From Sycon ciliatum (taxonomy: Eukaryota > Porifera > Calcarea > Leucosolenida > Sycettidae): DNA of 64,000 nucleotides. Under the pieces are notes generated by a model, which saw nothing but the letters and a program-made list of their open reading frames with translations, was not told the DNA's origin and did not search any database. The stretch lies in the NCBI RefSeq assembly GCF_964019385.1, contig NC_088649.1:15584647-15648646 (forward strand). The letters run 5' to 3'. How positions within the stretch are numbered: the first letter of the stretch is position 1; every line of letters begins with the position of its first letter. A program made the translations under genes and the position numbers. Shown piece by piece: positions 22,301-63,223 of the stretch.

Positions 22301-23008
22301 CAGGTGTGGGTTGGTAAAGGCAGGTTGTTGCATTTGTACAGACACCGACTCCACCACACTCTTTGCCGCTGTCAGCATCGACCGAACACTGACTGGTGAC
22401 TCGAGACTGGTCCACGCAGCGTTGCTTGTGGCACACGAGGTCCTTGTTAGCGCCGCTGGCATCACAGCGTGTTCCGTCCTTCACGAGCGATGGGTCATCG
22501 TGGTTTCTTGGCGGGGACGCGTACAAACCATTGCACCTGAGTACACCGCCAACGCCGCGTACGGGAATAGTTTGGGACAGAACGCCACTACTGGGTTGGT
22601 TCTTTCGAGCAACTGGAAGGCAGAACAAACTACCACATAGGGCATCTCCAGCCGCACAGGCTGCATAGGTTCCTGGGGTGGAATTGGACGATTTGAAACC
22701 ACAGTTACCCGTACGTTCTCCAAATACGTTCATGATTGCAAAGCAATCCTCAGGAGCTGACCCTTGATCCATATCGTTCCAGACACTCTGACACTGGCCA
22801 GTTCGTGATTGGCAAACTCCACTCCAGCAGGATGCTTGACTATTGGAGCAAGGCCAGCCGTTGCGTGCGGTCAGGTCCTGTGGACATGTGGCATTCTCGC
22901 CGTCGCAGTACTCCGCCATGTCACAGTCGCTGGTGGCGGCGCGGCAGACCTGATCCCGGCGTGTCACGATGCGCTTGTTCACGCAGCATGGGTCCGTGTC
23001 CGCACACC
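22301..23008 (-). CDS. exon D6: C-terminal half of disintegrin domain plus ADAM cysteine-rich domain
   Basis: 708 bp, 235 full codons, phase 1-1. It opens with the second half of a disintegrin domain (DPCCVNK, DQVCRAATSDCDMAEYCDG, ATCPQDL), then an ADAM-type cysteine-rich domain: CWSGVCQSRTGQCQSVW, APEDCFAIMNVFGERTGNCG, ALCGSLFC, DGTRCDASG and LVCHKQRCVDQ, followed by the start of an EGF-like tail (CGGVGVCTNATTC). The acceptor is TGTAG before GGTGTGCG. The chosen end is a GC donor (CCTG then GCAAGT) that keeps phase 1; if it is not used, the frame stops at 22281. The first half of the disintegrin domain and the metalloprotease are not seen anywhere. Family match is strong; the 3' end is uncertain. 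Confidence 0.85.
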
Positions 23009-23561
23009 CTACATTAAACCAACACACAACAACAACATAGGTCAGTATGCCAGACATTGGCATAACAGTAAGAAATCAGTCTACGAACCTCCCAAAGAAA
23101 AACGTGTGCAGCATGCAAATTATGCCCGCAGCAGACATCAAGAAAAAAAAGATGTGAGGTACTATTTAGGGACTTTCACAGTCTTTGAGGGGCACGGAAT
23201 GACAGATCGAGCAGACTTTTGGCTTGTAAATCCACGGCCAATACTGTTCTTTATGTCGAGATGCTGGACGGGCTTGAGTAGGAGCTGATTATATCAATCC
23301 ATTGGACCAGAAGACATCCCATCCAACATCTACAACGGCCTGGCTACCCATTCTATGGGGTCTGGTGATGGCGAAAACTCACATCAGGCGATGTAGTGTG
23401 CCTGTAGTTCCAACCTGTTCTAGTGACCACTGGGGAAAGCTTAATTTCTTCACTCCACTCGGCCAGTGGAGTAGAAAATTTGCATTTCCCTGACATAAAT
23501 CTACTCGGCTTACATCATCGACAAACCATTCACGGCGGCTGCAAGCAAGGTCAAACCATTA

Positions 23562-23792
23562 TATCAAGAATCCATAATCCTCCAGAGTGCGCAACTTCAC
23601 TGATCAGATCTGGGACGAAATCCGTGTTGAACGTCATAGTGTGACATCATGAGTAGGGAAAGTGTGAACCGTGGTTGACCGCGTCGACGTAATGACGCAA
23701 GTCCGACCCAAACATGACGTAAATCACGGATTACGCCGTCCCACAACCCCATCCTAGTTGCGCACTCTGCGGGATTATGGACTCTTGATGAT
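23562..23792. mobile_element. MITE-like element, GAGTCCATAAC family, copy 2
   Basis: Ends atcaagaatccataatcct and inverted atcaagagtccataatccc, each followed by cagagtgcgcaact. It sits in the intron between exons D5 and D6. Confidence 0.72.
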
Positions 23793-24274
23793 ATTAATGA
23801 GGCAGGGACACTCCACTTCTCAAAATCCGCTGTCATCAAGTCCCGCTTATGTTTCCCGGGTGACACAAAATGGGCATTTTGCAACAAGCCAGGAGACCAG
23901 AAGTTGCTGGGGCCGATGACCGCCATTCATGCATGCAAGTTGGCTCAACTAGTCCAACCGACGACAGGCAAATCAACTACTACAATGTACCATACTTTCC
24001 AGAGGAATCGCCGTACCTGAGTATTATCCGTGCCCAGATTATACCCATCCACCCTTTACATCGTGGTGTATTTAACCACTGGAGTGTGAGCAGCACAGAC
24101 CTTTTATTTTTTGGGGGGTGTAAATTAGGAGTGTTTAAAATGCGGACTGTAATCCGAACACATGGCATTACTTTCACTGGACATAGATTTACAAAGCGAA
24201 AGAAATGTAACTGCAACATGCAGTGCGCACGCCGAAGGAATGCAGCGTATTTGCTTCATTAAGTAGACACTTAC

Positions 24275-24364
24275 GAGTCTGGCACCGGTCACCAATCCAT
24301 CCTTCAGCGCAGGTGCATGTGCCGTCTTCATTACAGCGACCCTGGTTCAGACATGTTCTGCACT
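24275..24364 (-). CDS. exon D5: EGF domain preceding the disintegrin exon
   Basis: 90 bp, phase 1-1, acceptor CTGCAG, donor GTAAGT. Six cysteines in EGF spacing (CRTCLNQGRCNEDGTC, then CAEGWIGDRC). Unlike EGF exons of the repeated blocks it has an extra residue near the start and the WIGDRC ending, so it is not a simple copy of block exon 6. It replaces the mini-module/EGF pair found at this place in blocks A-C. Confidence 0.85.
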
Positions 24365-24687
24365 CTGCAGCAATTATTGTGTGCAGTGCATGACGTACAT
24401 ATTGTTTCAGTGCACAACAAATAGCAGCAGAACAGCACAGCATGGTTAGTACATGATTCATGATCATCATCGGGTGCGACACGTCAAAGCAGTTTTTTTA
24501 AACATCCAGATTACACAACACCCCAGGTGCACTGGGGGGAGATCCACCACATTCAAACGGAATGATTATAGTAGTAGTGGGTGGAGATCTGGATCAGGGT
24601 ATGAAGAAACGATCACAACCTCAGCCTTATATGCAATGAGTGAAAATAACTGTTTGCATTGACAAAAATGAATATCTTGCTACCTAC

Positions 24688-24777
24688 CGAGTTGGCAATG
24701 TTCTCCGTAGAATCTTGTCGGGCAGATGCATTTACCCTCGTTGTCACACTGACCCTGGTTCAAGCACTTGCAGTCGT
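24688..24777 (-). CDS. exon D4: EGF domain
   Basis: 90 bp, phase 1-1, acceptor CTACAG, donor GTAGGT. Reads DCKCLNQGQCDNEGKC and CPTRFYGEHC, a six-cysteine EGF. One codon longer than its counterparts in blocks A-C. No calcium-binding consensus is evident. Confidence 0.88.
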
Positions 24778-25308
24778 CTGTAGAGATACGATATGTTCAT
24801 GCATGCGCAACAAGAGCAGGGAATGGCAAGGAAAAGCATCACGGCATGCTATGCAATGAGAAGCATGACGGGAGCAATTGAACCACAAACAAGTTACCAG
24901 TGGTTGAGCCAGACTGTCCAAGCACCAGATTTCCCAGAGTATAAAAGCCACACATCACTAGTTCAACCCAAAAAAAATAGGGGTGAGGCCTATTCTGCGT
25001 CAAATTAATTAACGGCGATAGATAGGGTAGTAAAAGTGGGGAGGCTTCCTGCAGTTTCCTAAACAGTTGAGAGTAGAGCCCACACGCTCTCTTCCATTAA
25101 CACTGCAATAGTTCAACTCATTTCACAACAATTATTCCAACGTTTCGGCAAATTGCCTTCATCAGGTTCACAATGATGTGCAAGCTTCCAAACTATAGGG
25201 TAGGTAGCTGCATTTCGTGGCAAAAAATCTGGGTGTGGAAATACGGTCGTGATATCAGCACATGGTTATGTACAGTATTTTCCAGAGTAAAATCCACATT
25301 CGAGTATA

Positions 25309-26452
25309 AAGGCCGATTCACAATACAACTTCTAGCAACGCGACATGCGACTTGTGACACCTGCGACGAGCTGCGACAAGCCGTGACAGCGACACACAGT
25401 TCACAATCTTTTTTTCATGTATGCGAAATCCTTATGCACTAGTGTGCAGAGGCCACTCGTCAAGATGGCAGCAAATCCGAGAGTACAAAAATTTCGACTC
25501 TGGCTATGTGCGCGGCGGATGCGAATCTCGCACGTGCATGCAAAATCTAGCCTACTACAGATCTGGGTAGAGCAAGTGTGTTGGAACGACGACCTTTTCC
25601 GAGAGAGAATGTGGCTCTTTTTATCCTAACATTTTACTGGCCACGCTCTCCCTCCCAGCTTATTGATACGAGTATCTGCTACCGAGTAGAAGTCTCCATC
25701 TTCACAGCAGGCCAGGCAAAAGCGAAACATTGAAATACTTTGCTCACTTGGTTTTTTGGTTCTTTGAGGTGTTGATGTGGTTGTTGTGTACAACTCAAAG
25801 TGACAAACTTGAGACCCCCACGCCACAAAGTTTCGTTTGGCTGTTCAATGAAAGGACATATGGAACCAGGGATAAAAACTATCGTGGCTGCCGGCCAAAC
25901 TCCTAGTAATGTAATAAACGGGGGTGTGACATTGGTAATTCCAAGGAGAATGTACGCACGGCCATTCCACAATGAAGACGAAACTACGAGCTCAAAAACA
26001 CTCCGATTTTCAAACAAAAGACTCAGGAGAGAAGACATGGCCGCAGCGTTCCCGTGTAGCCTTCAAAATGCCTAATTTTACTTCGATAGCGGCTGGTTCA
26101 GGGCAAATTCAGGCCCAATTTGACAGCGTCGTACCGCTCAGATTCGCCCAAAACACGAGGAAATGTACGGTAGATCCGAATGCGTACGCATTTTGCGTAC
26201 GGGGACGACTGGCCAGAGTTCATGCACTGCAAACACCCGTGTAGTAGTACTATGCACGTGCACTGCATGAGCACCCAGGGTAGAAACTGTACTCCATTTG
26301 TGCATGTCGAACGTCACATGTCGCAAAAGTTGAACTTTCTTCAACTTCTGCGACAGGTGCCTTGCGACTGTACGCGACAGCTCGGGACAGACAGTTTCTA
26401 GTCGCAACTGTCGCAAGTCGCGTTGCAGAAAGTGGTGTTGTGAATCGGCCTT
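25309..26452. mobile_element. DNA element with AAGGCCGATTCACAATACAA ends, long copy
   Basis: Terminal inverted repeats AAGGCCGATTCACAATACAA / TTGTGAATCGGCCTT; subterminal regions on both sides are rich in tgcgac/gtcgca motifs. 1,144 bp with no recognisable transposase. A shorter copy lies at 59180-59704, also in an intron of this gene. Confidence 0.78.
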
Positions 26453-26602
26453 AATTAAGCTGCACTTGAGTATAAGCCACACGCGGATTTTGTTGGTCCT
26501 TAAATATAGACATCAGTATACCCCGTTCACCAGCGGGTTATTTCCATTGTAGTACATGTATAATCCACACAGACTTAGACAGTTTTTAACCTGCAGTCTT
26601 AC

Positions 26603-26686
26603 CCTTTTCACAGTATTCTCCATAGAAGACAGTGCGGTTGCACTTGCAACTCAGGTCCTGGGCCAGAACGCCATTAGCACAGTGCT
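26603..26686 (-). CDS. exon D3: four-cysteine mini-module
   Basis: 84 bp, phase 1-1, acceptor GCGCAG, donor GTAAGA. Reads HCANGVLAQDLSCKCNRT then GEYCEK: four cysteines spaced C-x10-C-x-C-x9-C, like the second half of an EGF fold. Homologous to 36362-36445 and 59052-59135; missing from block B. Confidence 0.8.
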
Positions 26687-26842
26687 CTGCGCAGAAAAGA
26701 CAACACAAAAGGCTCCATTGCATCACTCGCTCACAGTTCGCTACACTTGAATGTTCGCAGCATTCAAACAGGACTCGACGGCAGAAACTGCGACTGGCTG
26801 GAAAGCAGAGAAACCACATTGTTGGGTTGGTCCCAAGGGAGC

Positions 26843-28165
26843 TTAAAGAGTGGTGGGACGCGCTTGGTCATGTACGACACTACGAGATGTTTCACTGAGA
26901 TCCTGTAGGGATGCCTGTGGGACCTGGACTTTCTTTTGACGGCCAGTTACAACATTCAACACTCTCCACAGTTTGCGCTGGTCACTCGTTCGGCATTGTT
27001 CAGTGAAGAACTGGTTGCGCAGTTTCCTGTCGAGTCGACGGGCCATGGCCCGAGTTTCTCTAGGCTGATCACGCAATTGTACATTCGCTTGATCTCTCAT
27101 GAGGAGCCGGTGTAAATGGTTACGTTTACGAACTGCACCCACAAGCTCATCAGTCAGCCAGGGGCATGGGCGGCGTGCGCGTTTACGCTGGGGTACCAAT
27201 GGTGCATACTGGTCTAGTGTGGACATGATAGAAGAAGTGAAAGAATGAAGCATATCATGGATATTGCTGTGGGCATCGAAGTCTTGCTGCTGTTTCCTCT
27301 GGAGGTCGATACTGAAACTGTCCCAGTTTACTCGATGGAGACGTCTGGTGGTTTTTACTGACGATGACACGTGGTGGTGTGTGTGAATGCTCAACCGGGC
27401 CAGCACAGCAAAGTGATCACTTATATCTAAGTGTATTGCTTCACAGGTACCATCCAATGGGGAGGATGAGAGGAACAAATCAAGCACCGTGGATGATGTT
27501 GCCATGACTCGAGTTAGAGAAGTAACATAATTGCAGAGATTGTAGTGGGAAAGTATGTTGTACAAAGGGGATGCAGATGGAGAAGTTGGATTGCTAAAAT
27601 CAACATTGAAGTCGCCAAGTACCACAGTGGACTGCTGACATCCCTGAACAGCTTGCTCAACGTTCTGATCCAGTGTGGTCCAGTAGGCAGCAGAACTATT
27701 TGGCGGCCGATAACAGCAGCCGAGGAGCGTTCCATGTCGACCAGGGGCTAGAATCTCCAGCCACAGCATCTTTAGCTCGCACTGTAAATCGGCCCGTTGT
27801 CGAAAAGCAAGTGACTCATGACAATACACAGCAACTCCGCCACCTCGCTGATCAGGTCTTTCTCTTCTGTATAGCTCGAAGTGCGGGATGGACAACTCCT
27901 GATCGGACACATCCGGGGTCAACCATGTCTCGGCTATCACGAGAACGTGAATGCCTCGTGTTGAGATGAACGTTTGAACTTCTGCTACCTTCCGCCGAAC
28001 ACTACACACATTCAGAAATCCCACACTGAGTGACTGGGTCGAGGAGGTAGGTGGTGCTGTGAGTGTTATATTATAGTTATATTTCGGCACAGCAGACATT
28101 GGCATAGCAGATGTTGGCATATGATATACTGGCACAAGTACTGTTGTCCCAATCTGCATTGCCAC
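26843..28165 (-). CDS. LINE endonuclease ORF, RT missing
   Basis: 440-codon open frame. It carries an APE-type endonuclease: GFLNVCSVRRK near the start, VIAETWLTPD, GGGVAVYCHES, CYRPPNS, VVLGDFNVDFSN, STVLDLFLSS and LDISDHFAVLARL. The linker region follows (PCPWLTDELVGAVRKRNHLH) and the frame stops before any RT block. About 70 bases upstream sequence repeats ggcatagcagatgttggcat-like units. The element has lost its 3' half yet the remaining 440 codons are unbroken. It lies in the intron between exons D2 and D3, in the same orientation as the host gene. Confidence 0.88.
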   Translation of the reverse strand: MAMQIGTTVLVPVYHMPTSAMPMSAVPKYNYNITLTAPPTSSTQSLSVGFLNVCSVRRKVAEVQTFISTRGIHVLVIAETWLTPDVSDQELSIPHFELYRRERPDQRGGGVAVYCHESLAFRQRADLQCELKMLWLEILAPGRHGTLLGCCYRPPNSSAAYWTTLDQNVEQAVQGCQQSTVVLGDFNVDFSNPTSPSASPLYNILSHYNLCNYVTSLTRVMATSSTVLDLFLSSSPLDGTCEAIHLDISDHFAVLARLSIHTHHHVSSSVKTTRRLHRVNWDSFSIDLQRKQQQDFDAHSNIHDMLHSFTSSIMSTLDQYAPLVPQRKRARRPCPWLTDELVGAVRKRNHLHRLLMRDQANVQLRDQPRETRAMARRLDRKLRNQFFTEQCRTSDQRKLWRVLNVVTGRQKKVQVPQASLQDLSETSRSVVHDQARPTTL

Positions 28166-28264
28166 AATGCATGTTGGTATAAGTCATGATGGCACAGATA
28201 TGTTTGGACGAAACCTGTTCACACTCAAGGCATTTTCATAACGACAGATTGCATGCCTTCTCAC

Positions 28265-28473: not shown

Positions 28474-28520
28474 GGGGAAGCCATTGATAAAACCACTCTA
28501 AAAATATAATTATCACTTAC

Positions 28521-28835
28521 TGACACAGAGGGTTTTGGCGTGGCGATTGATTGTGGAATTTTGAAATGGATTACTGCGATTTCTAAACGTTACAGTTATG
28601 TAATGGGAGTTGCCATTCACTCGGATTGGTTTGACGTGGTAAGGTGCGTGCCGAAGAGCCAATCTATCTAGCCAGCGCTCTCTTAATACATGGCCATGTG
28701 CTTGCAGCCAGTCATAGGTTATGAGGTGAAGTCCGTACTCCTGACATGCCTCCTCTGCAAACTGCTCAGTCACGTTGGGTTTCAGTGATGGCGTGGCTGC
28801 GGCATATACCGAGTCGTTGTAATGGAGCCACTTGG
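28521..28835 (-). CDS. exon D2: lectin-like module 2
   Basis: 315 bp, phase 1-1; acceptor CCTGCAG, donor GTAAGT. Starts KWLHYNDSVYAAATP, core FAEEACQEYGLHLITYDWL, ends HAKTLCVS. Two cysteines only. The pattern A-x2-A-C-x3-G-x-x-L-I resembles the alpha-1 region of C-type-lectin folds and the matching part of module 1, but no WIGL or carbohydrate-binding EPN/QPD motif is seen. Potential N-glycosylation at NDS, NVT, NRS and NST. Fold assignment is an inference. Confidence 0.8.
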
Positions 28836-31126: not shown

Positions 31127-31504
31127 CTTCGCAGATGACATCATGATGGCTTGTTCCATCACTATCATACAATTCTTTAGTCGAACTGTTCTTGCCCTGC
31201 TGGTATATGAGATGTTCGTCATCCTTCATGAATGATGTCCATATTGAAGTAGGGTTGCTGTAACCGCTTGTCACCATCTTGTTGAGCAATGCTCCCATGC
31301 AGTCGCGCACGCCAAGCGTCTGATTGGTGAAGGAATCATGGTCTACCACGTTGTATCCTCTTCTTGTGCACATCTGGCGGGCATGCGTCAAGTTCGTTTT
31401 CTTCTGGCAGCTGTCACCGTCGAGGTGTGGATAACACGGCAAGCCGGCAAGAGCCATCCAGGTGTACATTGCCTTATCTGTACCCAGGCACTTTGTCTTG
31501 AAAG
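31127..31504 (-). CDS. exon D1: C-type-lectin-like module 1
   Basis: 378 bp, 125 full codons, phase 1-1; acceptor GTTCAG, donor GTAGGC. Begins FKTKCLGTDKAMYTWMALAG, six cysteines including LPCYP, DSCQKK, ARQMC, VRDC and VICEG. The helix-like ARQMCTRRGYNVVD and the terminal VICEG resemble a C-type lectin fold, but there is no EPN/QPD/WND calcium site. Upstream the frame stays open to an ATG at 31559 with a hydrophobic run (MCFLLHLTVPCMC), so an alternative start exon with a signal peptide is conceivable. Confidence 0.82.
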
Positions 31505-32459: not shown

Positions 32460-32546
32460 TATACTGACACTTGTCTCCATGGAAACCGTTCCGGCAATTG
32501 CAACTGCCATCGTCAGTGCACTGACCGTCATTCAAGCAATTACATG
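32460..32546 (-). CDS. exon C6: EGF domain
   Basis: 87 bp, phase 1-1, donor GTGAGT. CNCLNDGQCTDDGSC and CRNGFHGDKC, six cysteines. Closest to 50664-50750 and 41316-41402, the last exons of blocks A and B. Confidence 0.88.
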
Positions 32547-32895: not shown

Positions 32896-32976
32896 CTTCT
32901 GTGCAGTTGGGTCCATCTAGTCCCGGTTGACATTCACACACTTTGCTCTTTTTCACCCAGGGTTCCTCGCACACAA
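32896..32976 (-). CDS. exon C5: second four-cysteine mini-module
   Basis: 81 bp, phase 1-1, donor GTAAGG. VVCEEPWVKKSKVCEC then LDGPNCTE; four cysteines spaced C-x10-C-x-C-x8-C. Homologous to 41789-41869 and 56443-56523. The intron just downstream also aligns with theirs (gggtcatacattatttgaca). Confidence 0.82.
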
Positions 32977-34999: not shown

Positions 35000-35086
35000 C
35001 GAGTTGGCAATGGTGGCCGGTGAATCCCCTAGGGCAGCTGCATTCACCTTTGTCATCACACTCACCTTGGTTCAAGCACTTGCATG
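35000..35086 (-). CDS. exon C4: EGF domain
   Basis: 87 bp, phase 1-1, acceptor GTTGCAG, donor GTAAGT. CKCLNQGECDDKGEC and CPRGFTGHHC. Matches 57143-57229, 45895-45981 and 24688-24777. Confidence 0.88.
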
Positions 35087-36361: not shown

Positions 36362-36445
36362 CCTTTTCACATTCTTCACCGTAGGACATAGTGCGGTTAC
36401 ATGCACAACTCATGTTCGGTGCAAGAACACCGCTCCCACAGGACT
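36362..36445 (-). CDS. exon C3: four-cysteine mini-module
   Basis: 84 bp, phase 1-1, acceptor GCACAG, donor GTAAGA. SCGSGVLAPNMSCACNRT then GEECEK. Homologue of D3 and A3. Confidence 0.8.
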
Positions 36446-36888
36446 CTGTGCAGAAAAAGATAATAAAAGTCAATATTGGATTACTCTTATGCAGTCTATA
36501 ACAGGGCTGCCACACTTGGAGGGAGAAAAATCTGACGGGGGTCTGGGGGGTCCCCCGGGTGAAAATATTTAGGAAAATGGCTTGCTGTTGGGGTCCCAGA
36601 ACACATTTTTAACGGTCAACACATTAGCATTTTACAGCTACATGTACATGTACATGTACAATGACTGGACAAACGCGACCTGGAAGAGCCAAATGGCCAA
36701 CTGGACTAAAAAGTGCTCAAAATAAAATCGGTCGGTTTGTCCGACAGGGGATCAAAAATCGGACGATTTCCAAAAAATCGGAGCAAGTGGCAGCCCTGCT
36801 ATAACACTAGAATGGGGATAGTAGCTTATCTAAAAAAAAAACCTGGATTGAAGGAACAAGACGAGTTGTTCTTGGGCTTTTACACCCA

Positions 36889-37296
36889 CGGTATCATAGA
36901 CCGGGATGCATGACAGCAAGGCACGGTACTATAGAACGGGGTGCATGACAGCAAGGTACGGTACCATAGAACGGGATGCATGGCAGCAAGGCACAGTACC
37001 ATAGACCGGGATGCATGACAGCAAGGCACAGTACCATAGAACGGAAGCATGACAGCAAGGCACAGCACCATAGACCGGGATGCATGACAGCAAGGCACGA
37101 TACCATAGAACGGGATGCATGACAGCAAGGCACGGTACCATAGACCGGGATGCATGACAGCAAGGCACGGTACCATAGACCGGGATGCATGACAGCAAAG
37201 CACAGTACCATAGAACGGAAGCATGACAGCAAGGCACAGTACCATAGAACGGAAGCATGACAGCAAGGCACGGTACCATAGAACGGGATGCATGAC
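36889..37296. repeat. 35-bp minisatellite, about 11.5 copies
   Basis: Unit atagaccgggatgcatgacagcaaggcacggtacc, mostly 35 bp with three 34-bp copies; units start at 36896, 36931, 36966, 37001, 37036, 37070, 37105, 37140, 37175, 37210, 37244 and a partial at 37278. All three minus-strand frames are open through it, which I take as a property of the unit and not as coding. It lies in the C2-C3 intron. Confidence 0.95.
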
Positions 37297-38038
37297 ACCA
37301 TAACACTTCCAACACGGTTTCTGAGCTCTTGCTGTACGATAGATACATCCGTATTACTGTGCAGTGCATACTGCAGATGCTCAAATGTTCGGAACTCGGC
37401 TTTCCCTGAATGGAATTGAGCAATCGAAAAGTCTATTTGCATAGGAAAGTTCTCAGCTCCGTCGGCAAATAGTAGGGTTACAGCCCTCGCCGGGGATTTC
37501 ACGTCAAGTAGTAAACTTTCGCCTCCTCACGTGGTGACAGTCATGGGAATTCCCCCTGTTTCTTGACAACAACAAAAAGTTGTCTGTAAATTCTCTCAAC
37601 CCTGATGGCATGTCGAACTTCAGCTTGTCATGCATTTTGATTCCTCGCAATTGGAATCCAGGGAGTAAATTCTCCCCCGTCTCTGCCACAAACTGATATT
37701 GCGCCAAACAAAACCTTAGAATCAAAACATGCTGTAATGACTTCGGAGTATCCCTGGGAAGACACCGAAGAAACACAGCCTTAATCTCAGTTCTGGGAGT
37801 GTTCTCAATGTTGTGATTCACCGTGGGTGCAAGAAATGCTGGGAGACGACATGTTTGCACATTGCAAGTGGGCACATTGTTGGCATAAGCCCTGTTCATA
37901 CAGTGCACGTAGCGACGGGACACATTTACACAAACGCACAACTATATTCATCACGTTAGCGGCACAAACAGGGACCAAACACAGCTTGTGCATGGACAGC
38001 CATTGCAGAAGACAGTCACTTATTATTCTCTCACTTAC

Positions 38039-38362
38039 TGACACAGAGAATCTTTGCATCCTCATGGCTTGTTTCGTTCTTAAACGTCACATGTTGTCTG
38101 CTAAATTTTACTGTTCTGTAAAGGGACTGACCATTGACCAGGATTGGCGCGACGTGGTAACCTAATCCGTCGGACTTATCTAAAGCCAATCTCTCTAGCC
38201 AGCGTTCTCTTAACACATGGCCATGTTCTTGTAACCAGTCTTTGGTTATGAGGCGAAGTCCGTACTGCTGACATGCGTCCTCTGCGCACTGCTCAGTCAC
38301 GCTGGGTCCGAGTGCTGGAGTTGCTGCGGCATATACAGAATCGTTGGCATGGAGCCATTGAG
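38039..38362 (-). CDS. exon C2: lectin-like module 2
   Basis: 324 bp, phase 1-1, acceptor TTGCAG, donor GTAAGT. Core EQCAEDACQQYGLRLITKDW, ending DAKILCVS. Here the usual F-A-E-D is C-A-E-D, giving a third cysteine. Three codons longer than the D2 and B2 versions. The intron downstream (37820-38030) is homologous to 60450-60680 beyond exon A2. Confidence 0.8.
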
Positions 38363-39701: not shown

Positions 39702-40073
39702 CTTCGCAGATGACATTGTGACGGCCGAACCCATGAACACTAAATATTGCACCACTCGATTTGTTCTTGTCCTGCTTGTAAATAATACGCCGACGATTGT
39801 ACTCGGATGATGTCCATATCGTGATCGGGCTGCTGTTACTGTTCACCATCATCTCGTGGAGCAATGACTCTACGCAGCCACGCACACCAAGCTTTGAGCC
39901 GAGCAAGGTGAAGGTTTTAAAGTCGACCAGCTGATATCCCCTATCACTGCATGCGTCTCTGGCTTTCGTCCAACTGGTTATCTTCGGGCAGCTGCCTGAA
40001 TAACATGGCAAGCCGGCGAGAGCCGTCCAGGTGTACATCACCTTGTCCGTACCCAGGCACTTTGTCCTGAAAT
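39702..40073 (-). CDS. exon C1: C-type-lectin-like module 1
   Basis: 372 bp, 123 full codons, phase 1-1, acceptor GTTCAG, donor GTAAAC. FRTKCLGTDKVMYTWTALAG, LPCYSGSC, ARDACSDRGYQLVD, VRGC, IWTSSEY and VICEG. Slightly shorter than D1 and A1 because of a deletion after LPCYS. Possible N-glycosylation at NSS. Confidence 0.82.
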
Positions 40074-41315: not shown

Positions 41316-41402
41316 TGTCCTGACATTGGTCTCCGTGGAATCCGGTCGGACAGACGCAGGTGCCGTCTTCAGTACACTGACCATTATTCAGGCAATTGCA
41401 TG
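41316..41402 (-). CDS. exon B6: EGF domain
   Basis: 87 bp, phase 1-1. CNCLNNGQCTEDGTC and CPTGFHGDQC; donor GTAAGT. Last exon of block B. Confidence 0.88.
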
Positions 41403-41788: not shown

Positions 41789-41869
41789 CTACTGTGCACT
41801 TAGGTGCATCTAGTCTGGGTTTACATTCGCATACTTTGTTCTTTTTCACCCAGGGATGTGTGCACACAA
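41789..41869 (-). CDS. exon B5: second four-cysteine mini-module
   Basis: 81 bp, phase 1-1. VVCTHPWVKKNKVCEC then LDAPKCTV; donor GTAAGG. Confidence 0.82.
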
Positions 41870-45894: not shown

Positions 45895-45981
45895 CCTTCT
45901 GGCAATTGTCTCCGGTGAATCCCTTCGGGCAGATGCATTTGCCTTTGTCGTCACACTGACCCTGGTTCAAACACTTGCACA
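45895..45981 (-). CDS. exon B4: EGF domain
   Basis: 87 bp, phase 1-1, acceptor CTGCAG, donor GTAAGT. CKCLNQGQCDDKGKC and CPKGFTGDNC. In block B this EGF directly follows module 2, because exon type 3 is missing. Confidence 0.88.
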
Positions 45982-47745: not shown

Positions 47746-48060
47746 TGACACAGAGGATTTGGGCTCGGTGATTGCTTGTGGTGTTCACAAACCTCTGTTT
47801 TCCCTCGCTAAACGTTACGGTTCTGTAAAGGGAGTTGCCGTTCACCACGATTGGTTTGACGTGATAAGGTGCTTGCCGAATAGCCAATCTATCTAGGAAG
47901 CTCTCTCTTAATACATAGCCATGTGCTTGCAGCCAGGCCCCGGTTATGAGGTGAAGTCCGTACTGCTCACATGCCTCCTCTGCGAATTGCTCAGTGACGT
48001 TGGGCCTCAGCGCTGGCGTTGCTGTGGTGTATACTGAGGAGTTGGCGTGAAGCCACTTGG
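47746..48060 (-). CDS. exon B2: lectin-like module 2
   Basis: 315 bp, phase 1-1. KWLHANSSVYTTATP, core FAEEACEQYGLHLITGAWL, ending RAQILCVS. Two cysteines. NSS, NVT and NTT are possible glycosylation sites. The next exon seen is B4; no exon of type 3 was found between. Confidence 0.8.
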
Positions 48061-48930: not shown

Positions 48931-49569
48931 CTTCGCAGATGACATCATGATGGCTTGCTCCATTACTATCAAGTAACTCTTCTCTTAACTCGTTCTTGCC
49001 CTGCTGGTACATGATATTTTGGTCATCCTCCTCGAGCGATGCCGATATTGAGATAGAGTTGCTGTCACCGCTCGCCATCATCTTGACATCAAGATGGCTT
49101 GCTCCACTACTATCATGTAACTCTTCTCTCAACTTGTTCTTAACTTGTTCTTGCCCTGACGATAGGGAGATAGGGTTGCTGTCACCGCTCGCCATCATCT
49201 CGAAATCAAGATGGCTTGCTCCACTACTATCATGTAACTCTTCTCTTAAGTTGTTCTTGCCCTCCTTGTAAATGACATGCTTGCCATCCCTCAAGAAAGA
49301 TGTCCATATTGTGATAGGGTTGTTGAAATTGCTTGCCATCATCTTGTTGAGCAATTCTTCCATGCAGTCTCTCACGCCAAGCATCTGACTGGTGAAGGCA
49401 TTATAGTCTACCACGTCGTATCCTCTTCTCTTGCACATCTGGCGGGCATGCGTCAAGTTCGTTTTCTTCTGACAGCTGTCACCGTCGAGGTGTGGATGAC
49501 ACGGCAAGCCGGCGAGAGCAATCCAGGTGTACATTGCCTTATCTGTACCCAGGCACTTTGTCTTGAAAG
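48931..49569 (-). CDS. exon B1: C-type-lectin-like module 1 with internal triplication
   Basis: 639 bp, 212 full codons against 123-130 in A1, C1 and D1; phase 1-1 and no stop. The first two thirds are ordinary (CLGTDKAMYTWIALAG, ARQMCKRRGYDVVD, VRDCMEEL). Then the last part occurs three times: MMASNFNNP..LHDSSGASHLD, MMASGDSNP..LHDSSGASHLD and MMASGDSNS..LDSNGASHHD, followed by the normal VICEG. Only the first keeps the full IWTS stretch. The acceptor is TTAAG where its sisters have TTCAG, and an in-frame TAA lies just upstream, so this exon cannot extend 5'. Confidence 0.82.
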
Positions 49570-50663: not shown

Positions 50664-50750
50664 TGTGCTGACACTGATCTCCATGGAAACGTTTCCGGCA
50701 GATGCAGGTGCCATCTTTGGTGCACTGGCCGTCATTCAAGCATTTGCATG
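50664..50750 (-). CDS. exon A6: EGF domain
   Basis: 87 bp, phase 1-1. CKCLNDGQCTKDGTC and CRKRFHGDQC; donor GTAAGT. Separated from A5 by the chromovirus insertion. Confidence 0.88.
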
Positions 50751-51330: not shown

Positions 51331-52530
51331 TCAAGGCTGCTGTCGTTGTGAGGCTAGATAGTTCTGCAGCGGTTTAATATTCCGACCAGACTCATCACAT
51401 AGGTTGCCAGCGGGCTCCCACGTAGCTTTGCTGCTGGGGTAACCCTTCCAATGCACCAGGAAGTGTTGCTCACCACTGCGGTGTCGGTGATTCAAAACGG
51501 CTTCGACAACATAGCGTGTGTGTCCATCTAGATCTGTGAAGGGCGAAGGCGGGGGTTGGTGTCTTCCAGGAATCGTGTTCTCTTCGTAGCGTTTAAGAGC
51601 AGTGACATTAAACACGGGATGGCAGCGAAGTTCACGGGGTAGTTCCAAGCGAAAAGCATTCGCTCCAATCTTAGCCTGGATATGATACGGACCAAACGAC
51701 TTGGATTGCAACTTCCGAGAGGGCTGGCCACGAGCTTCCGGGGTCAGTAGAAAGTCTCTGTAGACAAGAAGGCTATCACCAACCTTCAAATCACTGGGCG
51801 TTCTCGTCTGGTCTGCGTATAGAGCTTGCCTTGCCTGGGCGTCGAGCATTGCATCTCGAGCTATCCTTAGTGCGGCTTCCTGCTCGTGAAGCCAATCGAC
51901 CGAATCACTCCTTTCCCCTCCCGTAAGAATGAATTCGGGCGGGGACTTAGGGTCAAACCCATAGTTTAGATAGAACGGTGTATTAGCTACAGATGACTGT
52001 TGTGAACTATTTATTGCAAACTCGCAGAGTGGTAGAAGCGAATCCCAATTGTCCTGTCTCAAGTTCACAAATGCTCTTAGAACATCTCCCGCTTGCCGGG
52101 TAACTCTCTCTGTCAAACCATCCGTTTGAGGGTGGTTAGCAGGGCTGAATGCCAATTTAGTTCCTAGCTGAGAGAATACTTCTTTGAAAAAAGCTGCAGT
52201 GAATCGTGGATCGCGATCGGAAACAATGGTCGAGCTCAGCCCGTGCAGACGAAACACGTTTTGAATGTACAGTTGAGCACTGCCCTTAGCATCAATCTTC
52301 GAGTTTGTTGGAACAAGATGTACGCATTTCGTAAGTCGGTCTACAAAGGTGTAAATTGCGTCGAAGCCACGAGAAGTAAGGGGCAATCCAACAATAAAAT
52401 CCATTGAGATATCCTGCCAAGGACTATTAGGTATTGGAAGTGACTGGAGAAGCCCTGTTCGTGGCTGACCTCCCTTCGTTCGCTGGCAGAGATCACAGGT
52501 TTTGACAAATCTCTTGATATCGAGACCCAT
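51331..52530 (-). pseudogene. chromovirus integrase and chromodomain
   Basis: 399-residue open frame after a TGA. It starts within the zinc-binding region (CDLCQRTKGG), then the catalytic core: the first Asp in SMDFIVGLPL, the second in IVSDRDPRF, the Glu in TDGLTERVTR. The C-terminal part has the GPYHIQAKIGANAFRLELP module and a chromodomain (VEAVLNHRHRSGEQHFLVHW, KGYPSSKATWEP). Chromodomains tether such elements to methylated histone H3 chromatin. All domains look complete; the upstream stop at 52528-52530 separates it from RT. Confidence 0.93.
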
Positions 52531-54243
52531 TCAGGGCCAGTAGAAAAAACTTGCTAGGCGGAAGTACGTTCGATCACGACCCGGGTGGCCAGCCGTTGCA
52601 CACTCATGGTGTTCTTGAATGAGCTTTAACCGGACACCGCACTGTGGCATGCACAACCGGTTATTGGGGGATGCCTTGAGGTACAAGCGATCAGTGGATT
52701 TGTCCCAATAATAGCGATCATGCAAATTATCTGGGAGAGAATGCTTCAATCTTTCTATGATGGGAGTTAGCTCTTTGTCTCTCTGGTAGGCATCTGATAT
52801 TGTATTGGACACGTCATCATTCATTGCTAAAGCATACTCAATAGCATTCAAACGTGGTACTGCATTCTCCACGAGGTTACTCTCATGGAGATCTGGGCGA
52901 CGCGAAAGGGGATCTGCAGGGTTCTCTCTGCCGGGTCTGTGACGGACTGTGTAGTCATAGTCAGCTAGGAATTCAACCCATCGCGCCTCTCTCTTTGTAA
53001 TGCTTGGTTTTGTTTTCAAATAAACTACCGCCATGTTGTCTGTAATGATCTCAAAGTGTTGAAAGAGGTATATGCGCAAGGTCTTTAGCGCAAACACTAC
53101 GGCCAATGTTTCTCTTTCTGTAGCTGTATAATTCTGTTCAGCAGCAGACAATTTTCGGCTAGCATAAGCCACTGGATGCCAGGCATCTTCCTCTAGTTCT
53201 TGGAGAAGAACACATCCCAAGGCGAAATCGCTTGCATCTGTTACCACTCTGAATGGTCGGTTCACATCAGCCAGCCGCAATAGGGGCGCATTCAACAAGG
53301 CATGCTTTAGCGATTCAAAGGCATGTTGCCGAGAGCTGTTCCACTCGAATCGTGCATGTTTTCCCATTATCTCCTCTAAGTTCTTAGAGAGCGATGAGTA
53401 TTGATCTATGAATCGTCTAAAATAATTCGTAAATCCAAGAAATTGCCTCTCCTCTGTGACGGAAGTCGGAGCGGGCCAGACCTTTACTGCGGCAATCTTG
53501 TCTGGGTCAGGGGCGACGTGCAGTCCATCGATGCAATGTCCCAGGAACCGCACACTCTCCACGCCAAATTCACATTTTGACCGTTTGCAAAATAACTGGT
53601 TGTCCCGGAGCACGCTCAATACCGACCGGACATGCTGCATATGCTCCGACCACGTTTTGCTGAAGATGAGTATGTCATCTAGGAACACGACTACGAACTC
53701 CCTCAGATATGGTTGAAGAATCGTATTCATCATGGATTGAAATGTTGCCGGTGCATTGGTGAGACCAAATCCCATGACCCTAAATTGGTAATGCCCAAAG
53801 GGAGTGTTAATCGCGGTTTTGGGCGCGTCCTCAGCTTGAATGCGAATCTGATTATACCCTGATCGGAGGTCTAGTTTCGTGAAGTACCTAGCGCCCTGTA
53901 CGGTATCGAATAAATCATCCACATTGGGCAAGCACGCCTTGTTCTTAACAGTTATCTTGTTTAGCTCCCTCCAATCGCAGACCATGCATAACTAACCATC
54001 AGCTTTCTTGACAAAAAACACCGGTGCACCAAAGGGGGACTTACTTGGTTCTACGAAACCCTTTTTCAAGAGTTCTGTGAGCTGTTTCTTCAATTCCTCC
54101 ATTTCTGGCCTGGGCAGGCGATAGGCAGGTCGCGATGGGGGTGATGAGCCTTCCTCCAGGCGGATTTCGTGGTCTACAAACCTCTCTGGTGGGAGTCTAG
54201 CTGGCAGATCATCCGGGAAAAGATCTTCATAGTCACGGAACAT
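52531..54243 (-). pseudogene. chromovirus reverse transcriptase and RNase H
   Basis: Same frame throughout, broken by a TAG at 53989-53991 between FFVKKADG and VCDWRELNK. RT has DLRSGYNQIRI, VMGFGLTNAP and the catalytic FLDDILIFSK; RNase H has VTDASDFALG, ATERETLAV and ITDNMAVV. The start of the integrase zinc-binding region (HHECATAGHPGRDRTYFRL) follows before the TGA at 52528. Confidence 0.93.
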
Positions 54244-54308
54244 GGCCTTGAGATCTGGGTGCTCGTTCTGAGTGGATTTGTCGGGAGGTTCCTTGGCAAT
54301 GCCGTCTT

Positions 54309-54973
54309 CTACGCTGAATCATGCCAGAACACCTTCGTCTCCACTCCTAAGAGCATGCCTAGCCTGACGACCAGATATGAACATCGCCTCCACAGGAGCG
54401 GTCGGTTTGCTGACGCACAAGGCAAACCATTCGAGTTCAACCTGACTTCATTCGTCCGGAAGTTTATGTCTGGATTGTTACGCGTTAACCAAGGTTTCCG
54501 CAATATAGCGTCATAGCGATGAAGGGGGAACACCGTGAAGGTTTGGTTATCGCTGAAGTCGCCTACGATAACCTTCAATTCATGGGTCGTCTCCATGGGA
54601 AACGAGCTTGATGCTCCATCAGCCAGCGTGACATTCAGGTTTTCCGAGCCAATTTCGGTTGGCAGGTTAACTCTCCTGGCAAACTGTTTGGCAATGAAAT
54701 CATGGGTCGAGCCCGAATCTATTAACATAAGCGCGCGACGACCGTTGATTTTGCCTTCTACACGCAGGAGCTCATGTTCCGTTTCCACATTGATGCTGGT
54801 AACCTGGGCCTCAATAGTTGGTGTAACATCTCGCTTGAAATTGGCTTCGGAGCATTCAGCATCATCGTCAACATCCTCCACAGCGAGGCTACTGAATCGG
54901 TTACGGGTAGAGACGGAGCACACACTACACGCAGGTGATGCCTTTTCTTGATGCGTCAGTAATCGCATCGGCC
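54309..54973 (-). pseudogene. chromovirus aspartic protease region
   Basis: Active site LMLIDSGSTHDFI near 54725, flap-like region and RYDAILRKPWL near 54510. After NPDINFR the reading shifts by one frame into the RT frame, and a TGA near 54312 lies in that frame too. The protease is in a different frame from the zinc knuckle of gag. Confidence 0.85.
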
Positions 54974-55870
54974 TTACTGACGTCCACCGTTTGGGTGATC
55001 TGGATGCTGCGGGCAATTCTGGGCCATATGGCCTGGTCGACGACATGCGAAGCAGCCCCCCCCCCCCCTGGGCTCGTAATGTCTCACGTTCCTCGGGGCT
55101 TAGTTTTGTTAGCTTTCTGCTACCTGATGGTGGTGCGAATCCCGGCCCGGTCGCCAGTGGTGGTCTGCGCTGAAATCGGCTGTCTGAGGCGACTGCTAGC
55201 GCTGCCTGAACGGCGGCTGACAGTGTAGTGGGGTGTTCCTTCACTACCAAGGTCCGCATGTTGCCGTGCAGGCTGTTGACAAATAGCAAGGCTCTGGAGA
55301 GTTCGTCAAGTTCCGGCACCTGTAAACTTAGCCGAGAAAACTCCGTTACGTACGATTCAATTGACCCACGCTGTTGGATAGAGAACATATCCAACCGCAC
55401 TCTTTCCCCGTCATAGTGCGGGCCATAAACTCGCGCTAGGGCGCTTTTCAAAGAATGCCAATCCGAAAACTGCTCACCTGCTTCGATGGAAGAAATTAGC
55501 CAAAGACGCGCATTCCCAGCGAGGTAGCTAGCCGCAAAATTAACTTGGCTCTCCGGGTCACCTGAGGTGAGCACTTCAAGGCTAACTCGACCGTAAATAC
55601 CCACTCTTTGAACTCGGAAGGGTTGCCATGGAAAACATTTGGTTCTCTGGTAACGCGTTTGACGCTCGGGCTTGTCTGGGAGAGAGAACGCGATCGACAC
55701 GGGGCTAGATCCGGAGGACTTGAGCTTGATGTAGCAGGTAATTGATGTCGTCCAACTGTAGCAGCCACGTTGTCCCGAGCGCGGCGGATCTCACGGAAAG
55801 CGGCGTATAGCAGAGCAGTAGCGGCCAGGAGCACAAGGCACGTCAAAGGGCAAACGATGATCTCAACCAT
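54974..55870 (-). pseudogene. chromovirus Gag with N-terminal hydrophobic segment
   Basis: The ATG at 55870 begins MVEIIVCPLTCLVLLAATAL, a hydrophobic run of about 20 residues before REIRRARDN. The N-terminal frame (to about 55580) and the zinc knuckle CFACRRPGHMAQNC (near 55030) are in one frame and end at a TAA at 54974-54976. The middle part (LTSGDPESQVNFAASYLAGN to EERETLRAQ) is in another frame, so two compensating shifts are needed, one near 55580 and one at the run of 12 C at 55056-55067. A membrane-like segment at the start of Gag is unusual. Confidence 0.8.
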
Positions 55871-56442: not shown

Positions 56443-56523
56443 CTTCTTTGCAGTTAGGTCCATCTAGTCTGGCCGTACATTCGCATACTTTGTTCTTTTT
56501 CACCCAGGGATGTGTACACACAA
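56443..56523 (-). CDS. exon A5: second four-cysteine mini-module
   Basis: 81 bp, phase 1-1. VVCTHPWVKKNKVCEC then LDGPNCKE; donor GTAAGG. Confidence 0.82.
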
Positions 56524-57142: not shown

Positions 57143-57229
57143 CGAGTTGGCACTTGTCTCCGGTGAATCCTTTCGGGCAGCTGCATTCACCTTTGTTGTC
57201 ACACTGACCGTGATTCAAGCACTTGCATG
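57143..57229 (-). CDS. exon A4: EGF domain
   Basis: 87 bp, phase 1-1, acceptor GTTGCAG, donor GTAAGT. CKCLNHGQCDNKGEC and CPKGFTGDKC. Confidence 0.88.
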
Positions 57230-57403: not shown

Positions 57404-57491
<88 letters not shown>

Positions 57492-58343: not shown

Positions 58344-58385
<42 letters not shown>

Positions 58386-58430
58386 AACTATCTCTTATTG
58401 GCCACTGGCTATCGTGAGAATAAAGATTTG

Positions 58431-59051: not shown

Positions 59052-59135
59052 CCTTTTCACAATATTGACCATAGGTTGAGGTGCGGTTACATACACAACT
59101 CAGGTCTGGTCCAAGAACACCGGTCTCACACGTCT
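59052..59135 (-). CDS. exon A3: four-cysteine mini-module
   Basis: 84 bp, phase 1-1, acceptor GCACAG, donor GTAAGA. TCETGVLGPDLSCVCNRT then GQYCEK. The stretch 58526-59051 downstream has no recognised gene. Confidence 0.8.
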
Positions 59136-59179
59136 CTGTGCAGAACAGGACAACAAAAAGTCAATTGCATTACACTCTA

Positions 59180-59704: not shown

Positions 59705-60691
59705 TACAGTCCCTAACACTTGACATTTTTGATAACCCAAAATGATGGTCCAAGAAACCTTATCAGGCAGCAAAAAATTATAGGAACTGATGCGTGAGAG
59801 CAGGGATTTTTTTCAGTATCTACCCTCATAGGATCTGCCAAAGAGCTAAAGCATAGTGCATTTGACAGTTGCCGTTAAAATACAGCAGGGTGCCAATTGT
59901 CAGCCACCCTTCGGGGCATCGGCCATTTCCACGGTGATCAGATGAGAAGAATGGTCGGTTATGGGACCACTCATACATCTATCACATGCATATTCCAGCA
60001 TATTTTCAACATTTTAGTACGACAGGAACTAGGTGCACTCCAGCTTCTCATCGTTGTACATTTTGACTGAATAACCTGCTGTAAAACATCTTGGGCATCG
60101 CTTGAGTGCTGCTCCGAGTGGCAAAAATCAGCAAAACTTAAAAAAAAGCTGCCAATTTTGTATGTTGTCCAGCCCGACCAGGAGATCCGGATAACCGATT
60201 GTCCGGAGAGTTAACGTCCGCACAATCGGTGTTTGACTGTAAAATAATATCCCATCATACCCCTCATGCGAACACCAAGATATGGCCTGCACTCCCAGCA
60301 GTGCGGACAATCGCCACGCTACACTGCATAGACTTTCTTCCAACAAATAAAGTTGCTTGTGCCAAACAAGCAAGTCGCAATCGAAACTTCGAAATTACGG
60401 GAAAAAACACAACCTGATCCTCAGTTAAGGAAGGGCTCTCTATATTGGGATCCATTGTGCGTACAAGAAATGCTTGGATACGACATGTTTGCACATTGCA
60501 AGGTCACATCGTACATAGTGGCTCATTATTAGCACAAGCCCTGTTCACACAGTTAACGGTGGCACAGGAGACATGTTACACAAATGCACAAATGCACAAC
60601 AGTATACTCATCGTGCTGATGTCACACACAAGGGCAGAGCACTACTTGCGCATGGTCAGCCGTTTAAGTTAAGAAGCCTTGTCTCACTTAC

Positions 60692-61018
60692 TGACACAGA
60701 GAATCTGGGCTTGAGTTTTGCTTGTGGCGTTCTGAAACGTCTGCTTTCGCGCGCTAAACATTACGGTTCTGTAAAGGGAATGGCCATTGACTCGGATTGA
60801 CGCGACGTGGTAAGGTGCTTGCTGGTGTTTATGCAATAAGGCCAACTTCTCTAGCCAGCGCTCTGTTAACACATGGCCATGTTCTTCTAGCCACTCCTTG
60901 GTAATGAGATGATGTCCGTACTCCTGACATGCGTCCTCTGCGAACTGCTCAGTCACGCTGGGTCTGTGTGCTGGAGTTGCTGCGGCGTGTACAGAACCGT
61001 TGGCCTGGAGCCATTTGG
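60692..61018 (-). CDS. exon A2: lectin-like module 2
   Basis: 327 bp, phase 1-1. KWLQANGSVHAAATP, core FAEDACQEYGHHLITKEWL, ending QAQILCVS; acceptor TTTGCAG, donor GTAAGT. Two cysteines, several N-x-S/T sites. Confidence 0.8.
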
Positions 61019-61168
61019 CTGCAAAGCAAGGGAAGATACAGTTGTGGGTAGAAACACATCATGAAACAAATCTACGAATAAGGGGAGCTTGAAATCAAAC
61101 GCCCCGCTCCATGACACCCGATCTCATGGATAAGGAAGTGCCCAGAGCTAGTGAGTAGTTCAATGTTC

Positions 61169-61846
61169 TAGTGTTGAAACGAGCGTATCTATAACAAACG
61201 AGCGATCAGTTTCACTAACGAGCAACCTATCGAGCGAGCTAACGAGTTTCATTGATGTGGCAAATATGATTTTTTGAATAATTTTTTTTCTATTAAAGAC
61301 TTTTTTCAGATGGTTCAAATTATCACCGCCGGCATTTGGGGTTGCTGCTGCTTCACTTCGGACTGTTGTTTGGTGTCGAGATGTCTTTTCAGCGCCGTCT
61401 TTGAGCAGCCTTTGAAAGAAAAGACCGTTTTGCAAAGATGGGAAGTAGCCCTGGTCTTCGCTGCATCGCGGGAGAAAACTTCCAAACGACTGAGCGTAAC
61501 TTTCACTCGAATGGAGGTGACCGAAGCATATCCTGCGACAGGTCAGCAGATGCGGAACACGACATCAGTAGAGTCCACCAAAGCTGCAACGACAACTGAA
61601 GCAACTCAAAGTGTCGTGCAGGCATACAGTCACTGCAAATGCGAGTGATTTTCACTTTGCGCGGGACTGGACTCTCGATCGACCAAGGAGTCGTAAAATA
61701 TTTTACGACTCCCCGGTCGACATGTACTGCCATGTGTACGGAGTACGGTGTACGGTGTTCTTTAGTGCAAAGGAGCTGGCCGCACAAACGAGCCGAGTTT
61801 CTGGCGAGCGAGCTAACGAGTATCCGGTGAGATAGTTTCAACACTA
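61169..61846. mobile_element. hAT-like insertion with 8-bp target duplication
   Basis: 678 bp; ends TAGTGTTGAAAC and inverted TAGTGTTGAAAC; CAATGTTC on both sides (61161-61168 and 61847-61854). The homologous intron of block C reads straight through at about 39331 (gttcaatgttcataggcc). Subterminal gagcgagctaacgag repeats. An ORF inside shows no transposase motif, so it is likely non-autonomous. Confidence 0.88.
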
Positions 61847-62345
61847 CAATGTTCACAGGCCTGGGGCTCGCCAGACTTCGTAGAGCAGCACCGTGTCACA
61901 TTTGCAAATCATTCAGCGGTTCTACCAAGGGAGTAGTATAACACCGGGTTATGGCGCAAGCATACACATGAAATGTTTCTTCGCAGATGAAACTAATTGG
62001 TTACTCATGTGTGGATATGACCCTGGCTAGAGCGGTAGGTTTCTCATTGAAGAGGGAAACCTCGGTTGCATTCACTACTCCCGCCGTCTCTGTTTCATTC
62101 CTCCTGTCCCACTACTATCACTGGACACACCCTTTAACCCACTAACCGCTATATATATATACATCATTGAAAATGATGCCCAGGCGCTGAGGACGTATAT
62201 ATATGAGTGGTTGCTCCCAAGGTTCCTAACTATATATAGAGAATTAGAAAAGTTGCCTGACGATTGAAAAAAACTCAAGAAACTCGGAGTACCAGATATG
62301 GATTGATCGAAGAAGGATAGACTGACCATCACTGTGGATAAGAGT

Positions 62346-62418
62346 CATACTGTAGCTCAGTTGGTTAGAGCATTGCTCGCGAATAGCAAGGTCCCTGGTT
62401 CGAGTCCCGGTGGCGTGA
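62346..62418 (+). tRNA. tRNA-like sequence (pseudo-tRNA or SINE head)
   Basis: Folds as a type I tRNA: D-stem GCTC/GAGC with loop AGTTGGTTA, anticodon stem TTGCT/AGCAA, T-arm with TTCGAGT. A box TAGCTCAGTTGG and B box GGTTCGAGTCC are perfect, and a T6 run (62426-62431) follows as a Pol III terminator. Against a working tRNA: the acceptor stem (CATACTG/TGGCGTG) has a mismatch and several G-T pairs, position 33 is G instead of T, and the anticodon would read CGA without the long arm of tRNA-Ser. Confidence 0.6.
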
Positions 62419-62830
62419 CTGATGATTTTTTCTTTCTTTCATATCTGGCTTGCAAGTGTTGAGTTTCGGAGAGAAAAGAGCAGTACGTGGCATATGGCCT
62501 CTGGTTTCCTAATACGCTTATAATGTCAACACTCTTGGTGAAACACCCGGGAGCTGAATATACTGCTAAGCATTGTGATAACACCATTGTTTAGAACACA
62601 GACAAACCTTTATTGCGCATATAAGCCCATGGGCTTCTACCCAGACATGTTCACACAGCAAAAACTTCTTTTTTGCAGCAAATTTTCACTTATAAGCCCA
62701 TGGGCATATATGTGGGGAAGTATGGTATATACCGGTATAGATTATACATATTTTTCATTGACAAATAGGAAGTGCAGAGCCTGGGTGCCATGGCCTATAG
62801 CCTTAAATGGGTTAAAACGCAACAGCCTAC

Positions 62831-63223
62831 CTTCACAGATGACATCATGATTGCCTCTTCCATCCCCGTCAAATAGTGCGTCGCTCGAGTTGTCCTTGCC
62901 TTGCTTGTAAATAAGATGTTGACCAAAGTACATTTCCGATGTCCATATCTTGAGAGGGGTGCTGTAACTGCTGTTACGTCTAGCCATCATCTCGCTCAGC
63001 AATGATTTTATGCAGTCGCTAACACCCAGCTTCAAGCCAAGCTTAGTGAAGGAATTATAGTCTACGACGTTGTATCCTCTTCTCACGCACATCTCGCGGG
63101 CGTGCACGAAGTTCGTTTTCTTCTGGCAGCTGCCATAGTCGAGTTGTGGATAACATGGCAAGCTGGCAAGAGCCATCCAGGTGTACATTGCCTTATCTGT
63201 ACCCAGGCACTTTGTCTTGAAAG
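62831..63223 (-). CDS. exon A1: C-type-lectin-like module 1 (most 5' exon seen)
   Basis: 393 bp, 130 full codons, phase 1-1, acceptor GTTCAG, donor GTAGGC. FKTKCLGTDKAMYTWMALAS, LPCYP, GSCQKK, AREMCVRRGYNVVD, VSDC, KIWTSEMY and VICEG; six cysteines. Two NSS glycosylation sites. Upstream the frame is open to a hydrophobic start (MCCICVLLRLTVSC), so a signal-peptide first exon is an alternative to splicing here. Confidence 0.82.

Follow-up and report, generated by a model that had tools for sequence, protein, structure and literature searches.

Several described families of extracellular proteins share parts of their construction with the gene treated here, gene 1, an exon array on the minus strand of a 64,000-nucleotide stretch of the calcareous sponge Sycon ciliatum (the window; C8:15584647-15648646, in an assembly of 538 Mb). 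In the mannose receptor family (LY75/DEC-205, MRC1), as in gene 1, C-type-lectin-like domains (CTLDs) stand in tandem, but these receptors are transmembrane proteins with CysR and FN2 domains and have no EGF blocks or ADAM tail. Selectins resemble gene 1 in that a single extracellular chain combines C-type-lectin-like, EGF and sushi modules, but have one CTLD, one EGF and several sushi modules in a fixed order with a transmembrane end, whereas gene 1 has paired CTLD-like modules, four EGF types and repeated blocks; the domain order of both families differs from that of gene 1. ADAM/ADAMTS proteins and P-III snake venom metalloproteinases have disintegrin and ADAM cysteine-rich parts in common with gene 1, which differs in having no metalloprotease, half a disintegrin, and lectin-like modules in repeated blocks of the same predicted chain. 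The ADAM cysteine-rich region has been discussed as a binding exosite, with clear evidence for ADAMs described as lacking (PMC4885070). DMBT1 (salivary agglutinin), a recognition protein, carries 7 to 21 tandem SRCR domains, and their polymorphic number alters bacterial binding (PMC9038570). It is like gene 1 in its tandem repeated modules and Ser/Thr-rich parts, and unlike it in being composed of SRCR, CUB and ZP modules, with no lectin-like/EGF blocks and no ADAM part named. DMBT1 may serve as the nearest working analogy, although its module number varies among individuals, and that of the Sycon genes is known to vary between paralogues only.

The window contains most of one member of a S. 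ciliatum multigene family, and an inverted paralogue, gene 2, lies downstream. Comparison of the window with itself revealed diverged repeat families in the 22-63 kb interval that code on the minus strand, and the array of gene 1 comprises 23 exons running from 63223 to 22301, with splice sites placed by homology and two cases curated. The exon set is LA, LB, E1 and E2 (four copies each), M1 and M2 (three each) and a single tail exon. The common order is LA, LB, M1, E1, M2, E2, which is complete in blocks A and C; block B is without M1, as is gene 2 at that place, and block D is without M2. The exons, in window positions, are as follows.

62831..63223, minus strand: block A LA, C-type-lectin-like domain 1 (393 nt, phase 1-1)
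60692..61018, minus strand: block A LB, C-type-lectin-like domain 2 (327 nt), fold predicted from the block D copy
59052..59135, minus strand: block A M1, four-cysteine EGF-like module
57143..57229, minus strand: block A E1, six-cysteine EGF
56443..56523, minus strand: block A M2, four-cysteine EGF-like module
50664..50750, minus strand: block A E2, EGF, with a Ty3-type retroelement in the preceding intron
48931..49569, minus strand: block B LA (639 nt), its extra length due to an in-frame 117-bp tandem repeat (49043-49258)
47746..48060, minus strand: block B LB
45895..45981, minus strand: block B E1 (no M1 in this block)
41789..41869, minus strand: block B M2
41316..41402, minus strand: block B E2
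39702..40073, minus strand: block C LA
38039..38362, minus strand: block C LB
36362..36445, minus strand: block C M1
35000..35086, minus strand: block C E1
32896..32976, minus strand: block C M2
32460..32546, minus strand: block C E2, within which NCBI model P0002 departs from the array
31127..31504, minus strand: block D LA, copy used for structure prediction
28521..28835, minus strand: block D LB, copy used for structure prediction
26603..26686, minus strand: block D M1
24688..24777, minus strand: block D E1 (no M2 in this block), acceptor three bases ahead of the family position
24275..24364, minus strand: block D E2-type EGF adjoining the tail
22301..23008, minus strand: tail exon, half-disintegrin (PF00200 positions 31-75 of 75) plus ADAM_CR (PF08516, E 3.7e-20), GC donor
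19335..19448, minus strand: C-terminal Ser/Thr-rich exon, ending at a donor implied by P0001 (...TEVV) or else open to a stop at 19312

Every acceptor is AG (23/23) and 22 of the 23 donors are GT; the GC donor of the tail exon is matched by GT at the same place in gene 2. All 23 exons are in phase 1-1, each with a length divisible by three, so that the reading frame survives the loss, gain or exchange of any block or exon. The reading frame has no stop in 1633 codons, against 76 and 101 stops in the shifted frames, in each of which all 23 exons are interrupted. This pattern of open frame and splice sites is far beyond chance. In curation, an LA matched in two pieces around its internal repeat was taken as one exon, the open frame being continuous, and the start of the block D E1 was moved three bases earlier, to an AG; weaker overlapping tblastn matches and CT matches below 90% identity were dropped from the listing. 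The tandem repeat in the block B LA recurs more often in gene 2. The reading favoured here, to which we give about half of our confidence, is that gene 1 encodes a multimodular extracellular protein of a block-swapping family, working as a multivalent recognition or adhesion molecule.

The original prediction, of blocks of five or six exons with two lectin-like, two four-cysteine and two EGF modules each and a protease-free ADAM tail at the end, agrees with the exon set and the domain matches, and its limits coincide to the base with the end of the tail exon (22301) and the start of the first LA exon (63223). Its claim of homologous introns is true in patches between blocks A and C, in the LA-LB introns (62127-61847 / 39613-39334, 85.2% identity; 61171-61111 / 39345-39284, 95.2%) and the LB-M1 introns (60502-60401 / 37868-37767, 80.4%), but other matches fall in non-corresponding introns (39225-38931 / 32172-31875) and are probably dispersed repeats. 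As for extent, the inner limits are exact, but the array continues upstream of 63223 and the C-terminal exon at 19448 lies outside them. The latter is in phase with gene 1 and has an identical counterpart in gene 2, and NCBI models end similarly.

Flanks of 100 kb upstream (including a 5-kb run of N) and 100 kb downstream were taken in. On the same strand upstream lie a fifth block (LA-LB-M1-E1), an exon with sushi and cbEGF, further cbEGF exons and more M2 and E2 exons, in phase 1-1. Downstream, the inverted gene 2 has its own tail and extends to the end of the 100 kb, with at least 10 LB and 8 LA exons, the LA count having been made after merging split matches by eye. NCBI models share the splice junctions of the curated exons. 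P0001, on a contig as long as C12, joins blocks A-D and the tail (91.8% over 1790 columns), and its first part is an integrase fragment. In P0002 the fifth block is joined to the sushi/cbEGF exons and blocks A-C, at 99.75% over 1624 residues without a gap; the few differences would fit either a corrected model or a copy that is nearly identical. This closest NCBI model starts without a leader, its C-terminus could not be placed, and it omits block D and the tail, which counts against the favoured reading by weakening the case that a single transcript spans gene 1. Just past the window end, at 65608-65222 (locus L009), an integrase fragment lies upstream of an M2 exon, and the start of P0001 is 90% identical to it; it may be an exonised piece of a retroelement or a model error.

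The LB module looks like a CTLD. For the block D copy the AlphaFold2 confidence was low (55), and 44 of 50 Foldseek rows were C-type lectin, CTLD or Link, with 49 of 50 entries in a second look. An LB profile searched against PDB sequences gave antibody chains, at E 0.3 or worse. LA appears to have the same kind of fold, less surely than LB: the block D copy was predicted with a confidence of 53, its Foldseek rows were unspecific, the rows of a second look (n=20) were CTLD or intimin, and the LA family profile had LY75 as its sole match among PDB sequences. This check by structure and profile, which had been proposed for the modules, came out in favour of a CTLD for LB, with LA a tentative candidate. 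Neither module has a Pfam match over cut-off. The idea that LA and LB arose as mutual copies was considered and rejected: profile comparison gave a probability of 2.1% over 38 columns, which does not support a common origin. Calcium-dependent C-type lectins carry EPN/QPD and WND motifs; the calcium/sugar motifs EP[ND], QP[DN], WND and WIGL occur in none of 21 LA/LB copies. Proteins P0005 and P0007, on a contig as long as C8, have a hydrophobic leader, start with LA-LB, and contain several more diverged LA-like/LB-like pairs, which suggests that the LA-LB pair may be older than the block arrays.

Repeated lectin-like heads without sugar-site motifs, on a protein that has a Ser/Thr-rich C-terminus and is probably secreted, could also bind mineral or matrix as part of a spicule or skeletal-matrix protein. 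Sycon, being a calcareous sponge, makes its spicules of calcite, and both sea urchin spicules and avian eggshell are notable for C-type-lectin-like proteins. A mineral scaffold is not expected to swap blocks, however, and a skeletal role appears quite improbable.

E1 and E2 have six cysteines with EGF spacing. The E2 of block D is over the PF00008 cut-off and the E1 of block A over that of PF07974, and the E2 of block B gives a weaker EGF match, below cut-off. M1 and M2 have four cysteines only, in EGF-like spacing minus one disulfide, and no Pfam match over cut-off when searched alone. The EGF string of P0005, mini-modules included, aligns to WIF-1. Because the mini-modules align within EGF strings, M1 and M2 look like EGFs missing one disulfide, and the idea that they are new folds was set aside.

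The tail exon is related to ADAMs, with an ADAM_CR match over cut-off (72.9 bits) and a disintegrin match of 32.4 bits, below the cut-off of 35.1 and short of a complete disintegrin. In hmmscan, ADAM_CR was listed for the window tail and P0006, and not for P0001 or P0003. ADAMs have a reprolysin domain as well as the cysteine-rich region, and gene 1 has only the latter. Across the genome there are at least 42 ADAM_CR and at least 16 reprolysin matches, both counts being lower bounds (neither family gave a match in 14 control genomes). Since 27 of the 42 ADAM_CR matches lie more than 50 kb from any reprolysin match, the tail is, as far as sequence can tell, a protease-free cassette, which occurs at numerous loci and in no fewer than two protein contexts. 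The possibility that a protease was merely cut off by the window edge was rejected: no open frame with HExxHxxGxxH was found in the 184-kb stretch scanned, and the reprolysin match nearest to the window tail lies 1.07 Mb away. Most reprolysin matches (15/16) are in open frames of 846-2777 codons (e.g. C4:20480969-20482198), unlike the intron-flanked tail exons.

Five other loci score exactly as the window tail does; in the three examined, E1 and E2 precede the tail in all and M1 in two. The second context is that of the Sycon protein P0008 (NCBI 'CUB and sushi domain-containing protein 3-like', 501 aa), which shares the half-disintegrin plus ADAM_CR cassette with gene 1 (65% identical over the tail; 61/69 in its first part) but places it between sushi pairs, with no lectin-like blocks. 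A protein search with the tail kept 6 of 668 candidates: three Sycon proteins, P0009 with a disintegrin and ADAM_CR (33% identity to the tail), and P0010 and P0011 with disintegrin repeats and no ADAM_CR.

Evidence for block turnover comes from comparison of paralogues in one assembly. Block number differs between them, and gene 2 contains the unit LB-M1-E1-M2-E2-LA twice in tandem, the two copies sharing six aligned stretches, introns included, of 5807 columns at 96.2-99.6% DNA identity, with 0 to 2 synonymous and 0 to 4 nonsynonymous changes in each of the six exon pairs. Repeats of other segments, as far as 37 kb from each other, are 93-98% identical, and P0004 has two identical LB copies. 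In an LB tree (7 of 17 inner branches starred, 7 open), copies from gene 1, gene 2, P0001 and P0003 cluster by block position, and the new duplicates pair within gene 2. At locus L036 (C8:28.38 Mb), DNA of the gene 2 type passes into DNA of the gene 1 type at one point, with a 12-base overlap, and the last block is without LA, LB and M1. With differing block numbers, a fresh duplicate and a chimeric locus, block exchange between paralogues is well supported by the sequences, in line with the proposal that block number changes by recombination. Gene 2 also has one E2 with a frame break, and one of its LA exons, at -93715 to -88549 in window numbering (L028 into L027), is interrupted by some 4.8 kb of other sequence, an indication that blocks decay too.

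Between gene 1 and gene 2, the ratio of nonsynonymous to synonymous substitution rates (dN/dS), pooled over 1306 codons, was 0.48; the pool left out 2 of the 23 exon pairs (duplicate-block copies), and the LA and E1 of block A were unpaired. By module, the values were 0.79 for LA, 0.59 for LB, 0.25 for M1, 0.28 for M2, 0.30 for E1, 0.17 for E2, and 0.47 for the tail, where an N run restricts the comparison to the 5' part. Nonsynonymous to synonymous changes stood at 121:49 in the heads and 33:31 in the EGF modules (Fisher p 0.0056, from rounded counts and exploratory), and relaxed constraint would explain the faster change of the heads as well as selection for change. These values bear on the idea that gene 1 belongs to an ordinary extracellular-matrix or adhesion family, in which blocks are spacers or valency units that play no part in recognising self or microbes, and tandem duplications arise by neutral drift of a repeat-rich gene. 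Such proteins typically contain CTLD-like, EGF and sushi modules, the EGF string resembles WIF-1 and Notch, and dN/dS is below 1 in all pooled module families; on the other hand, the heads change faster than the stalks, and the multigene expansion and recombination between loci exceed the needs of a fixed matrix protein. We regard an ordinary matrix family as rather unlikely, though as an alternative to be taken seriously. A different view, that the array is partly dead, with its blocks being separate or decaying gene pieces and the long predicted proteins annotation artefacts, draws on the ending of P0002 before block D and the tail with a C-terminus that could not be placed, on the integrase fragment at the start of P0001, and on the split LA and broken E2 of gene 2. 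The uninterrupted frame and fully retained acceptors of gene 1, together with dS exceeding dN in every pooled module family, argue against decay, which we consider very improbable.

The favoured reading of a multivalent, block-swapping protein would take the following form. In each repeated unit, three or four EGF-type modules would form a stalk that carries a pair of C-type-lectin-like heads; the units are followed by EGFs, a cap made of the half-disintegrin and the ADAM cysteine-rich region, and a Ser/Thr-rich tail, and a protease is absent. Each block would add two binding heads, and the paired heads may bind proteins or surfaces; the cap derived from ADAMs is assumed to dock onto other proteins and not to belong to an enzyme. 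Recombination between arrays would alter valency and the set of heads without breaking the frame, with the heads diverging faster than the stalk. The recognition or adhesion role itself is inferred. The protein is probably secreted: no transmembrane segment was found, and P0001, P0003 and P0006 end in a Ser/Thr-rich tail (the C-terminus of P0001 being read by eye), which gives no support to the receptor that had been suggested. A downstream transmembrane exon was sought among open reading frames at 22300-18000, none of which could be linked securely to the array, and simple scanning downstream gave no terminal exon or polyA signal.

The structure of the gene suits exchange, with exons in phase 1-1, blocks in tandem, and paralogues that already differ through gained blocks and fused arrays. 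Should block number also vary between individuals, the family would be a sponge counterpart of the variable recognition proteins of the DMBT1 type, and a candidate basis for the recognition of microbes, or of one another, by sponges. A stronger form of this idea is germline recognition diversity, in which a pool of phase 1-1 blocks and the protease-free ADAM cap are common to tens of loci, and crossing-over makes chimeric genes, so that individuals differ and self is told from non-self, or microbes from one another; this is distinctly unlikely in our judgement.

Searches of 5.8 billion proteins with the block modules kept only Sycon proteins (5/4313 and 4/4724 candidates at E <= 0.001); such a search reaches only relatives of similar length that have exact words in common with the query, and the database possibly lacks other calcareous sponges. 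No description of such genes was found in a limited search of the open-access literature, which fits the earlier statement that no family with this architecture has been described. The modules and the principle are known, and it is their combination and the protease-free cassette that appear to be undescribed within the literature and proteins searched.

Mobile elements have entered the introns of gene 1. That the array is itself a mobile element was rejected, as its exons are intron-flanked modules of host type and the scanned retroelement reading frames are all intronic. The M2-E2 intron of block A contains a Ty3-type retroelement with a chromodomain integrase (51334-55790, minus strand; gag, protease, reverse transcriptase/RNase H and integrase frames), and the LB-M1 intron of block D the endonuclease frame of a non-LTR (long terminal repeat) element (26846-28183, minus strand). 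A minisatellite of about 12 copies of 35 bp occupies 36887-37297, in the LB-M1 intron of block C. Outside the array, an exact tandem repeat of 1055 bp at 1591-3701, in a region with a CCHC zinc knuckle reading frame, stems either from very recent duplication or from the assembly.

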